Source of the DNA: a virus
IMG/VR virus record: IMGVR_UViG_3300042261_000343
Location: 1 to 41,523 of that record
Strand: one strand, 5' to 3'
Length of the DNA: 41,523 bases
Shown here: one piece after another, positions 25,937 through 30,017 of the stretch
How the letters are laid out: each line of letters starts with the position of its first letter
Position numbering within the stretch: position 1 is the first letter of the stretch
Program-made: the position numbers and the translations under genes
The notes under the pieces: generated by a model
The model's input: only the letters and a program-made list of their open reading frames with translations
What the model was told of the DNA's origin: nothing
The model's database searches: none

Positions 25937-25969
25937 TTATAGTGCGTTGCCTCTCGGTAGAACCTCTTC
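25937..25969 (-). repeat. Second, recoded copy of the psbD 3' end
   Basis: Encodes [10 protein letters not shown] plus stop, the same peptide as 26431-26463. Ten of 33 bases differ from the psbD copy, all silent apart from the TAA/TGA stop change; eight of ten sense codons differ. It is followed by a terminator at 25903-25926, as expected for the original psbD end. Confidence 0.85.
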
Positions 25970-26401
25970 CAATTTCTCTACAAGAAGTTTTAGTTCTGAT
26001 AGTGTAGCATCATTCTTGAGAGTATTAGCTCTATTACTAATAACCCAAACATTATCTTTTACATATCCTTTTGTAGAATCAATACGATCAAGTGACGGAG
26101 ATTCCATAGGAGTGCCCAACAGGGGGCAAGTGTCTGGAATAACAATATCTTCTTTTGTAATATTGAAGTCCAGACCTCTTTGCTTTGCCCGATACTTTGC
26201 CCGAGACCACATAGGTGATCTTGGATCTTGCCCTGTCTTACGAAGTGATTTAGCATAACATCCACAAGATACTGTTTGTCCAGGTTTCATAGATGATTTA
26301 CGAACTGTTTTAATAGTTCCACATTCACACTGGACTTTACAGTATCTGTGAACTTTATCAGACCATTCATCAAGAACAGTAAGCATTCCTATTTTTTCCA
26401 T
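25937..26401 (-). CDS. HNH-type homing endonuclease ending in a copy of the D2 tail, 154 aa
   Basis: N-terminal zinc-type region (CKVQCECGTIKTV, then QTVSCGCYAK, residues about 22-50). A nuclease-like core follows with CPLLG, SLDRIDSTKGYVKDNVWVIS and NRANTLKNDAT, the pattern of phage HNH/His-Me homing endonucleases. The last ten residues, [10 protein letters not shown], are identical to the last ten of PsbD encoded just upstream. Nine of the 30 bases differ and every difference is synonymous. The gene starts 29 nt after the psbD stop. It therefore appears to be inserted in the psbD 3' end, its frame running into a displaced psbD tail. Confidence 0.85.
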   Translation of the reverse strand: MEKIGMLTVLDEWSDKVHRYCKVQCECGTIKTVRKSSMKPGQTVSCGCYAKSLRKTGQDPRSPMWSRAKYRAKQRGLDFNITKEDIVIPDTCPLLGTPMESPSLDRIDSTKGYVKDNVWVISNRANTLKNDATLSELKLLVEKLEEVLPRGNAL

Positions 26402-26430: not shown

Positions 26431-27492
26431 TCATAATGCATTTCCACGAGGTAAAACTTCCTCTGGAAATACAAACTGCTCATGAGGTTGGTCTACTGGT
26501 GCCATCCACGCTCTAAGACCCTCATTAAGGAGGATATTCTTCGTGTAGAACGTCTCAAACTCAGGGTCCTCTGCCGCTCTAATCTCCTGAGATACAAAGT
26601 CGTATGCACGGAGGTTAAGAGCAAGACCGATGATACCAATAGAAGAAGTCCAGAGACCCATAACTGGTACAAAAAGCATAAAGAAGTGCAACCAACGCTT
26701 ATTACTAAAAGCAATACCGAAGATCTGAGACCAGAATCTGTTAGCAGTAACCATAGAGTATGTCTCTTCTTCTTGAGTTGGTTCAAATGCTTTAAAAGTG
26801 TTTGACTGTTCACTATCTTCATAAAGTGTGTTTTCTACAGTTGCTCCGTGAATCGCACAGAGCAGTGCTCCACCCAGTATACCAGCAACTCCCATCATAT
26901 GGAAGGGGTTGAGAGTCCAGTTGTGGAAACCCTGAAGAAACAGAAGGAACCTGAAGATCGCCGCCACCCCGAAGGAGGGAGCGAAGAACCAACTGGATTG
27001 TCCCAGTGGATACATCAAGAATACAGAAACGAATACTGCGATAGGTCCAGAGAATGCGATTGCGTTATAAGGTCTGATGCCTACAAGACGAGCAATCTCA
27101 AACTGACGCAACATAAATCCTATTAAGCTGAAAGCCCCGTGGAGTGCCACAAAAGTCCAGAGTCCCCCAAGTTGGCACCAGCGGACGAAATCCCCTTGAG
27201 CCTCAGGACCCCAGAGAAGAAGAAGAGAATGACCCATAGAATCTGCTGGAGTGCTAACTGCCGCAGTAAGAAAGTTTGCACCCTCAAGATAGGAACTTGC
27301 CAACCCGTGAGTATACCAACTCGTAACGAAAGTTGTCCCAGTAAGCCAACCACCAAGAGCAAGATAAGCTGTGGGAAAAAGAAGAAGTCCAGACCAGCCA
27401 ACAAAAACGAAACGATCTCTCTTAAGCCAGTCGTCGAGTACATCGAACCATCCTCTCTGTGAAATTGGTTGTTGTAAAGTAGATGAAACCAT
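26431..27492 (-). CDS. psbD: Photosystem II D2 protein
   Basis: A full-length D2 of 353 residues in one uninterrupted frame. Recognised segments include [20 protein letters not shown], the redox-active Tyr161 (standard Tyr160) in [13 protein letters not shown], His198 (standard 197) in [31 protein letters not shown] and the terminal [12 protein letters not shown]. An AGGAG ribosome site precedes the ATG by 5 nt. D2 pairs with D1 to form the photosystem II core in thylakoids; phage copies are thought to sustain photosynthesis in infected cells. Its last ten codons are duplicated in the downstream endonuclease gene. Confidence 0.97.
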
Positions 27493-27531: not shown

Positions 27532-27918
27532 ATGAAACTCTGCAATTTCTGCAATAGAACTCTCTCTTTAGACAAATTCCATAAAAGAACCTTAAAAACT
27601 GGAAAAATATCTCTCCAATCAAAGTGTAAAGAATGTTCTACATCTATAAGAAAAAAGTATTACAGACCTCACGAATATATGAGAAGAAAGTTTAATCTTT
27701 CTGAAGCAGAGTATCAAGAATTAATAAAACACGATAGATGTCAAGTGTGTGACAGAGATATTACTGATAAAAAATGTATTGATCACTGCCACACTACAGA
27801 AAAAATCCGAGGAGTGTTGTGTAATAACTGCAACACTGCTCTCGGATTAGTAGGTGATAATGTTCAGATTTTATCTAAACTCATCCAATACTTGGAGCAG
27901 TCATCGCTACAGGAGTAA
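27532..27918 (+). CDS. Endonuclease VII-like homing endonuclease, 128 aa
   Basis: The only plus-strand gene. N-terminal zinc motif [14 protein letters not shown] with CKECS (residues 4-35), a helical link, then [25 protein letters not shown] and CNNCNTALG, which is the endonuclease VII (recombination endonuclease) pattern of two CxxC pairs around an IDHCH catalytic core. Family knowledge: the free-standing homing endonuclease F-CphI next to psbA in cyanophage S-PM2 is, to my recollection, of this type. It lies between psbA and psbD, faces psbA and overlaps its last 38 bases; its own C-terminus is therefore encoded antisense to the psbA end. No good ribosome site is seen. Confidence 0.85.
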
Positions 27919-28960
27919 TTTCTGCTGCAGCAAGATCCAGAGGGAAATTGTGGGCGTTCCTCTCATGGCTCACCTCCATCCCAAGATTAGCACGATTAAG
28001 CACATCAGCCCAGGAGTTGATGACTTTACCTTCAGCAGAGAGAATACTCTGGTTAAAATTCAGGCCATTCAAGTTGAATGCCATCGTAGAAACACCAAGA
28101 GCGGTGAACCAGATGCCTACAACAGGCCAAGCGGCGAGGAAGAAGTGCAGACTACGGCTATTGTTGAACGAAGCATATTGGAAAATAAGGCGTCCAAAGT
28201 AACCGTGTGCAGCAACAATGTTGTAGGTCTCTTCTTCTTGACCAAACTTGTAACCATAGTTCTGTGACTCGTTCTCAGTGGTTTCACGAACCAGTGAGGA
28301 AGTAACCAGAGAACCGTGCATCGCACTGAACAGAGAACCACCAAAGACACCAGCAACTCCAAGCATATGGAATGGATGCATCAGAATGTTATGCTCTGCC
28401 TGGAACACAAGCATATAGTTAAAGGTGCCAGAGATACCCAGAGGCATCGCATCAGAGAAAGAACCTTGACCGAAAGGATAGACCAGGAACACTGCACTCG
28501 CAGCAGCAACAGGTGCCGAGTAAGCAACACAGATCCAAGGACGCATACCCAGACGATAGGAGAGTTCCCACTCACGACCCATATAGGCGTAGATACCAAT
28601 CAGGAAGTGGAACACAACCAGTTGGAAAGGACCACCGTTGTAGAGCCACTCATCTAGGGAAGCAGCTTCCCAGATGGGGTAAAAGTGCAGTCCAATTGCG
28701 TTGGACGAAGGAATAACAGCACCAGAGATGATGTTGTTTCCGTACATGAGTGAACCAGCAACGGGTTCACGGATACCATCAATGTCCACAGGAGGTGCGG
28801 CAATGAAGGCAACGATGAAGCAGATGGTAGCAGCAAGTAGGCAAGGCACCATCAATACACCAAACCACCCCACATAGATGCGGTTGTCTGTGCTAGTAAT
28901 CCAGTTACAAAACTGTTCCCAAGTATTTGATTGTCGTTGTTGTGAAATTGTAGCAGTCAT
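27881..28960 (-). CDS. psbA: Photosystem II D1 protein, D1:2-like
   Basis: I take [17 protein letters not shown] (ATG 28960) as the start, giving 359 residues; longer in-frame starts run into the leader RNA. Key residues are present: Tyr161, Asp170, His190, His198, His215, Ser264, His272, and the C-terminal manganese ligands His332, Glu333, His337, Asp342 and Ala344. Residue 130 is Glu ([10 protein letters not shown]), the form found in high-light D1:2 proteins. No intron interrupts the frame. There is no Shine-Dalgarno but a long structured leader upstream. The last codons overlap the opposing endonuclease gene. Confidence 0.98.
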
Positions 28961-28981
28961 TTTTTTAAGAGAGTTAGATAA

Positions 28982-29101
28982 AAGTTCGGGGGGACGAACC
29001 ATTAGTATTATTCCCCACAGCACCCTCCACTGTGGGTATGAGAGACATCTTTTACTTGCCTAGTCTCGGTGAGGAGTTTCGTCCCTTTTCGGCAAGAACT
29101 T
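28982..29101 (-). ncRNA. Structured psbA 5' leader, probable PhotoRC-II-type motif
   Basis: On the transcript (minus strand) I find five complementary segments: 29101-29096 with 28987-28982 (AAGTTC/GAACTT); 29085-29078 with 28998-28991 (GGGACGAA/TTCGTCCC, 8 bp); 29067-29063 with 29046-29042 (GAGAC/GTCTC); 29036-29030 with 29020-29014 (CCCACAG/CTGTGGG); and 29096-29091 with 29060-29055 (CTTGCC/GGCAAG). The last pairs a hairpin loop with an upstream segment, a pseudoknot. PhotoRC-I and -II are known conserved RNAs of psbA leaders in marine cyanobacteria and cyanophages; placement here fits PhotoRC-II, but no covariance model was run. Confidence 0.6.
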
Positions 29102-29103
29102 GT

Positions 29104-29129
29104 GTTAAGAACCTGTTACATTTCTTAAC
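29104..29129 (-). other. 8-bp inverted repeat at the 5' end of the psbA leader
   Basis: GTTAAGAA and TTCTTAAC (minus strand 29129-29122 and 29111-29104) pair perfectly around a 10-nt loop. It would form a hairpin a few bases from the 5' end of a transcript begun at the promoter at 29139-29172, a place where hairpins commonly stabilise mRNA. Confidence 0.55.
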
Positions 29130-29138
29130 TCGTTGTTG

Positions 29139-29172
29139 TATTTATCATAACACCATCCTCTGGGGAAGTCAA
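29139..29172 (-). promoter_or_regulatory. psbA: Composite early/late psbA promoter
   Basis: Minus strand: TTGACT at 29172-29167, a 17-nt spacer and TATGAT at 29149-29144 form a good sigma70 promoter. The late box GATAAATA at 29146-29139 overlaps the -10 (TATGATAAATA). Both would give nearly the same start (about 29137 and 29133), leaving a leader of about 175 nt. Confidence 0.65.
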
Positions 29173-29654
29173 GAGGTATATTGATTAACTCCCCTTATGT
29201 TTCCACCCCTTTGCTCACATCCTTTTTTAGGTCCAGGTTTGATGTGAAGTTCATATCCAAACTTTGAGCACTCACGAATAGCCCTTTTGACTTGGTGTTC
29301 TTTTAGTCCAAGTAAATCAGCAACTTCTTTTCTTGATAATCCAGATTGACGATATTTTAATATTGATAGTTCTTGCTGTGTTGGTTCAGTTTTCTTTGGT
29401 GGTTTTCCTCTTTTTTCAGTTGAGTTTCCTTTACTCTTCTTTGCCCAGTTGATTGCTTGTTTATCGTGAATAAGTTTATGAGTTGCTGGATGATAAACAT
29501 AAAGATGCTCTGGAATATTTCTTCCACCTTCACATCTTGGTGGGTTGTGGTGAATATCAATATCTTTCATCTGCTCATCAGTAAGTCCATAGTGCTGTTG
29601 AGCAACTTTACGATAGTTATGTTTATCAGTAGAAAGAACAATAGCAGAGCACAT
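29169..29654 (-). CDS. HNH homing endonuclease with C-terminal HTH, 161 aa
   Basis: The ATG at 29654 (MCSAIVLSTDKHNY) is preferred over an upstream TTG because GGAG lies six bases before it. The nuclease core is DIDIHHNPPRCEGGRNIPEHL followed closely by THKLIHDKQ (residues about 32-70 overall, split by loops). A helix-turn-helix follows near residues 105-130: GLSRKEVADLLGLKEHQVKRA. HNH plus HTH is typical of free-standing phage homing endonucleases. It lies directly upstream of psbA, whose -35 box overlaps its stop codon. The ribosome site is buried in a long hairpin. Confidence 0.85.
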   Translation of the reverse strand: MCSAIVLSTDKHNYRKVAQQHYGLTDEQMKDIDIHHNPPRCEGGRNIPEHLYVYHPATHKLIHDKQAINWAKKSKGNSTEKRGKPPKKTEPTQQELSILKYRQSGLSRKEVADLLGLKEHQVKRAIRECSKFGYELHIKPGPKKGCEQRGGNIRGVNQYTS

Positions 29655-29658
29655 AAAA

Positions 29659-29696
29659 AACTCCAAACCTACTATTATTTAGGTAGGTTTGGAGTT
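29659..29696 (-). promoter_or_regulatory. Terminator-like hairpin hiding the RBS, with late motif in the loop
   Basis: A perfect 14-bp stem (arms 29696-29683 and 29672-29659) with a 10-nt loop CTAAATAATA, followed by TTTT and the endonuclease ATG. The 3' arm contains the GGAG ribosome site. The loop and arm junction read CCTAAATA (29683-29676), close to the late box; initiation about 29670 would produce RNA with no 5' arm. It can therefore act as a terminator and RBS lock early, and an open RBS late. This is inferred from sequence. Confidence 0.7.
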
Positions 29697-29711: not shown

Positions 29712-29954
29712 TTAGTGTTTCTGAATATTTAAAAAACTTTCTCTCCAATTATATAACTTTTCTTCCACTACTTCAATCTTATCAACAATCTTAGGAACAT
29801 TTTCTTCCTTTTTTTCTTCTGAACAAAAAGTCTCAGCATCATTCTGCTCTGGAATGACACCTGTTTTCTTCAGACCTTCATCAAGACTTTTTATTTTTTC
29901 ATTTAGATCTTTGGAAGCCTTAGAATACTTTACAGTCTTCTTAAAAATGCTCAT
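29712..29954 (-). CDS. Small charged protein, 80 aa
   Basis: Starts MSIFKKTVKYSKASKDLNEK; highly charged, Lys/Glu-rich and probably helical or coiled-coil (LNEKIKSLDEGLKK; VDKIEVVEEKLYNW), ending WRESFLNIQKH. No family recognised with certainty, although such short helical proteins are common near structural and photosynthesis genes of T4-like cyanophages. It has a composite early/late promoter upstream and the RBS-hiding hairpin downstream, which may terminate its transcript. Confidence 0.65.
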   Translation of the reverse strand: MSIFKKTVKYSKASKDLNEKIKSLDEGLKKTGVIPEQNDAETFCSEEKKEENVPKIVDKIEVVEEKLYNWRESFLNIQKH

Positions 29955-29982: not shown

Positions 29983-30017
29983 TATTTATTATACCCTATA
30001 TTCTTCTATCTTGTCCA
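29983..30017 (-). promoter_or_regulatory. Composite early/late promoter
   Basis: Minus strand: TGGACA (30017-30012), an 18-nt spacer, TATAAT (29993-29988), overlapped by the late box AATAAATA (29990-29983). The combined TATAATAAATA closely resembles the psbA promoter's TATGATAAATA. Confidence 0.55.

Follow-up and report, generated by a model that had tools for sequence, protein, structure and literature searches.

The psbA locus and its PhotoRC-II leader

The window (the whole stretch of DNA analysed here) is a 41.5-kb fragment of a viral record that carries psbA, encoding the photosystem II D1 protein, on its minus strand at 27881-28960 (Pfam PF00124, E 6.8e-89), with the start codon at 28960-28958 and psbD following it in minus-strand order at 26431-27492. 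Between these two genes, the plus strand carries a gene of the endonuclease VII family (PF02945; 27532-27918). The last ten residues encoded by an ORF located after psbD (25937-26401) are identical to the psbD C-terminus, and the shared 3' ends are 71% identical in DNA over 42 nt; the arrangement looks as if a gene had been inserted along with a second copy of the psbD 3' end. Immediately upstream of the promoter for psbA, the product of another ORF (29169-29666) shows a weak helix-turn-helix match and, by eye, an HNH-like N-terminus, and is possibly a free-standing homing endonuclease.

psbA is served by overlapping sigma-70-like and T4-type late promoters on the minus strand (29139-29172). 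Here TTGACT (29172-29167) is followed by a 17-nt spacer and TATGAT (29149-29144), which runs into the T4-type late box TATGATAAATA (29149-29139). This promoter scored 10/12 in a sigma-70 scan and is the sole match within the window to TTGAC..TANNNTAAATA, for which 0.03 matches were expected. The same overlapping layout was found in 73/112 relatives and is shared by the psbA leader of phage S-PM2, and early plus gp55 late boxes have been reported for psbA (Puxty et al. 2018, PMC5931967). A second TATAATAAATA box was observed on the minus strand at 29983-29993, upstream of a small ORF (29712-29954). From the position of the -10 box, the psbA transcript is predicted to start at about 29137, which gives a leader of ~177 nt (29137-28961). 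All leader coordinates below refer to the minus strand.

The leader ends in an unpaired, A/U-rich initiation region (28961-28983). psbA had been predicted to lack a Shine-Dalgarno sequence, and this is true of the window and equally of its relatives, where a Shine-Dalgarno-like 4-mer occurs between -20 and -4 in 0/130 cases and the composition of the initiation region is A 0.34, T 0.39 and G 0.04.

Searching the window with Rfam 15 detected a single RNA family, PhotoRC-II (RF01717), which matched over the full model (1-96) at 29107-29000 with 54.2 bits, above the gathering cut-off of 39 bits; psbA (PF00124) begins 40 nt 3' of this match. PhotoRC-I (RF01716) gave no match in the window in the Rfam covariance-model search. 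The PhotoRC class named in the original prediction is therefore confirmed as class II rather than class I. The Rfam alignment and pair counts show the two hairpins P1 and P2 with their conserved loop bases, and the element sits in the leader of a cyanophage psbA, its relatives being Kyanoviridae phages. The window's psbA leader is a genuine PhotoRC-II RNA. It differs from RF01717 in an 18-nt insert in the P1 loop (type B), and two pairings that covary here, K1 and P3, are absent from the nested Rfam 15 model. PhotoRC-II was described by Weinberg et al. 2010 (PMC2864571) and its annotation has been repeated in later phage papers (PMC9602691, PMC9964418, PMC10665884); our literature search found no functional study of it. 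RF01717 is also listed among families with extra covarying pairs by Rivas 2020 (PMC7657543), the main text of which gives no detail.

The pseudoknot and its flanking hairpins

For comparison, psbA loci were gathered by protein similarity, so RNA played no part in their selection. Leaders were aligned with a covariance model (R1), built from a seed of 29 leaders chosen by motif search, in which P2 and P3 are the sole paired elements; because K1 is unpaired in R1, the alignment does not favour it. R1 matched 53/80 protein-found loci and scored the window at 77.1 bits. The 117 leaders used in the counts that follow are from protein-found loci, together with a few isolates found by DNA similarity. 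The evidence on the leader is comparative, and thermodynamics alone shows little: the leader's folding energy is unremarkable (z = -1.07, not significant; 30/200 shuffles fold as well) and was set aside as evidence for structure.

Several complementary segments had been proposed for this leader (28984-29129), within an interval (28982-29129) that corresponds to the span from P0 to P3. Five helices were upheld (P0, P1, K1, P2 and P3), whereas two further pairings were at the level of chance. P1 is a hairpin of CUUGCC with GGCAAG (29091-29096 with 29055-29060), taken from the Rfam alignment. Its stem sequences are many and different, and stems scored 4.9 with their own partner against 3.9 with swapped partners. 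The type B insert in the P1 loop, found in a minority of leaders including that of the window, contains a weak additional helix, P1b (29082-29084 with 29073-29075). Nearer the 3' end of the P1 loop, an invariant ACC (29068-29070; 112/112 leaders) precedes the K1 5' strand GAGAC (29063-29067), which is complementary to GUCUC (29042-29046) in the linker downstream of P1; the latter is followed by a near-invariant UCAUA (29037-29041). The order is thus P1, a loop ending in ACC, K1, a short junction, P1, an A-rich loop, K1 and UCAUA. As read from the aligned leaders, P1 and K1 make up a classic H-type pseudoknot that is the core of the element.

A perfect five-pair K1 helix was present in 109/117 distinct leaders and came in seven sequence types: GAGAC/GUCUC (71 leaders), AAGAC/GUCUU (19), GAGAU/AUCUC (9), AGGAC/GUCCU (4), GAGGC/GCCUC (3), GGGGC/GCCCC (2) and GGGAC/GUCCC (1). 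Gaps or mismatches account for the other 8/117. In both alignments 99.3% of K1 cells were paired, and double changes (GC-AU, AU-GC and CG-UA) were seen in 4/5 pairs. When partners were slid by one column, pairing over the whole structure fell from 90% to 34-40%. In a protein tree of psbA with 113 sequences, counted after exclusion of rows with gaps in K1, the helix was Watson-Crick in 113/113, with no G-U or broken state, and its type had changed at least 36 times, a count of independent changes that leader recombination between phages may inflate. We also scanned the viral collection with two patterns that let one K1 base vary. In matches preceding psbA, GUCUU occurred with AAGAC by 30 to 0 and GCCUC with GAGGC by 29 to 0; the same patterns away from psbA, mostly chance matches, gave 30 to 11 and 11 to 15.

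Between the knot and the start codon, P2 is a hairpin of CCCACAG with CUGUGGG (29030-29036 with 29014-29020; also in Rfam) closed by the loop UGGAGGGUG (29021-29029). Its cells were paired in 95-98% of cases, with double changes in 6/7 pairs. P3, a hairpin of GUUCG with CGAAC and the loop UCCCCC (28995-28999 with 28984-28988), is located 3' of the part covered by the Rfam model, and 23 nt separate its own end from the start codon. The apical stem of P3 was 92% paired with double changes in 5/5 pairs, and the C-rich loop is kept across 41 different P3 stems. A terminator-like form of P3 is confined to the window's type, and transcription attenuation was rejected on this ground. On the other side of the knot, P0 is a 5'-terminal stem-loop of 8 bp with a 10-nt loop (GUUAAGAA at 29122-29129 with UUCUUAAC at 29104-29111). 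The segment just 3' of the late box had a mean z of -1.9 against shuffles in 67 relatives (window, -0.56), and P0 is also found in S-PM2, a phage without PhotoRC-II.

K1, P1, P2 and P3 go beyond chance because compensatory change in relatives keeps them. The covariance model and the covariation of the local stems, on which the original prediction had staked itself, both bear it out, and this comparison shows that the pseudoknot, P2 and P3 are maintained by selection on base pairing.

The pairings proposed over longer distances fared differently. It had been suggested that a hairpin loop pairs with an upstream stretch, but the contact of the P2 loop (GGAG) with an upstream CUCC (4 nt) was no better than in swapped leaders; the pseudoknot that survives joins the P1 loop to the downstream linker. 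In 120/122 leaders, AGGG in the P2 loop and CCCU in the P3 loop are complementary over at least 3 bp. This complementarity was no better than between swapped loops; it is conserved, and a kissing contact of the two loops is possible but not supported by covariation. The 5' part of the leader had further been proposed to pair near the start codon, through 8 bp between GGGACGAA (29078-29085) and UUCGUCCC (28991-28998). This pairing belongs to the window's minimum-energy fold and would rival P3, so that it could act as a switch close to the start codon that is restricted to one lineage. We regard such a switch as highly improbable. The pairing is present just in the window and its near-identical relative L159, it would destroy the conserved P3, and over 149 leaders the longest match between the 5' part and the start region was distributed as in randomly swapped leaders.

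Distribution and subtypes

When T4-like isolates were searched whole, 13/14 carried exactly one PhotoRC-II copy, before psbA; the remaining one, S-PM2, had none. Nor was PhotoRC-II found near psbA in two podoviruses (KBS-P-1A and NATL2A-133). Away from contig ends, copies of the GAGAC/GUCUC pattern stood before psbA in 107 cases and before other genes in two (L107 and L154). At these two loci (L107:4319-5811 and L154:2110-2799) PhotoRC-II occurs twice, and cargo, a 388-aa ORF in L107 and two small ORFs in L154, follows a duplicated copy of promoter and leader, with the insertion point within the leader. A copy of promoter, P0, P1 and P2 detached from psbA was observed at L224:5348-5445. There GAGAC faces GCCUC, and this copy has lost K1. 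The annotated psbA start of Syn9 lies 57 nt upstream, within the PhotoRC-II leader (L556:644-701), and is probably misannotated.

A minimal subtype, mainly from Prochlorococcus-type phages such as the isolate P-SSM3, has P1 and K1 alone. Full leaders have 73-84 nt between the knot and the start, these minimal ones 31-35 nt. Rfam missed 13 of the minimal leaders at its gathering score, whereas L322, a related short leader, was called. Some phages of the minimal subtype also carry a manA RNA (RF01745) downstream of psbA (L321:2352-2552 and L323:2352-2552). The structure obtained here is better supported than the nested model of Rfam, and it comes with a minimal subtype left uncalled by Rfam.

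In host-family genomes, the Rfam search found PhotoRC-II in 0/251 and R1 matched 0/151; both searches used strict filters, and the same Rfam search recovers the element in the window's own record. There was likewise no credible match in 80 cyanobacterial psbA loci. No host origin was found among the hosts searched. PhotoRC-I, by contrast, does occur in host genomes (5/101 over the cut-off). It resembles PhotoRC-II in having two hairpins in the leader of cyanobacterial psbA, the last of them near the start codon, but its model is 44 nt long and without K1. We found no K1-like pairing in two host leaders that were read, and PhotoRC-I was rejected as the ancestor.

Possible roles in psbA expression

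With slightly less than even confidence, we favour a reading in which PhotoRC-II is a cis-regulatory RNA of the psbA 5' UTR, a putative operator that is read in trans and governs psbA mRNA stability or translation. The core pseudoknot is flanked by separable modules, P0 on the 5' side and, in most members including the window's, P2 and P3 toward the start, and would act after transcription, on mRNA stability and on initiation. A trans factor, whether protein or small molecule, may read the invariant unpaired bases; the near-invariant unpaired bases that flank K1 point to specific recognition. The folded leader would shield the 5' end and the A/U-rich start region, which lacks a Shine-Dalgarno sequence, from RNase E, and the start region would stay open to ribosomes. 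Synthesis of phage D1 could then continue where host psbA mRNA decays. In Synechocystis, the psbA2/3 mRNAs lose stability in darkness through a 5' UTR AU-box that RNase E can cleave. For psbA2 mRNA, cleavage by RNase E in the dark takes place within the 5' UTR, and expression of host rne rises upon P-SSP7 infection (PMC10989914). psbA is the sole light-responsive gene of S-PM2 (PMC5931967). Since S-PM2 does so without PhotoRC-II, the element is not needed for light regulation of psbA.

The shielding part of this reading meets the objection that invariant unpaired bases would be superfluous in a purely steric shield. The same bases, in suggesting specific recognition, weigh against a plain stability leader, in which P0 and the knot would merely block 5'-end-dependent decay with no ligand involved. 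P0 does stand directly after the promoter with or without PhotoRC-II, and the modules are separable, as such a leader would have it; we nevertheless consider it quite improbable. A metabolite or ion riboswitch, with the H-type pseudoknot as aptamer in the manner of the preQ1 or SAM-II switches, would fit the compact knot, its invariant loop bases, the A-rich third loop and the strictly Watson-Crick K1 pairing. However, the leaders offer neither a Shine-Dalgarno sequence nor a shared terminator as an expression platform, and psbA as the single gene context gives no hint of a ligand, so a riboswitch appears unlikely.

The gene 32 operator of T4 and RB69 is the nearest analogue in T4-like phages. 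There, an unstructured, UUAAA-rich segment comes after a pseudoknot (PMC3014915, PMC535899). By analogy, a phage RNA-binding protein would nucleate on the psbA pseudoknot, spread over the start and repress psbA. PhotoRC-II resides in T4-like phages, P1/K1 likewise places an H-type pseudoknot upstream of an A/U-rich start, and in the minimal leaders the A/U-rich segment without a Shine-Dalgarno sequence directly follows the knot; these leaders resemble the gene 32 operator, the window's less so. Gene and sequence are different, and in full leaders such as the window's the intervening P2 and P3 would interrupt cooperative spreading. Moreover, gp32 represses its own gene, whereas repression of psbA has no evident purpose. 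We give repression of this kind a minority chance.

Returning to the trans-read operator, it is conceivable, though we hold this with clearly less confidence than the operator itself, that the pseudoknot is a phage invention, associated with phage psbA and not found in the hosts searched, which would respond to a signal from the infected photosynthetic cell (light, redox, a metabolite or a protein) and thereby set D1 output, P1/K1 being its minimal form. PhotoRC-II has been without an assigned function since 2010. Compensatory change in the pseudoknot across more than 100 phages, together with a minimal form and a P3 beside the start, makes that function testable by precise mutants. Of the photosynthesis genes carried by marine phages, psbA is one of the most widespread, and what is at stake is how these phages may tune D1 during infection.
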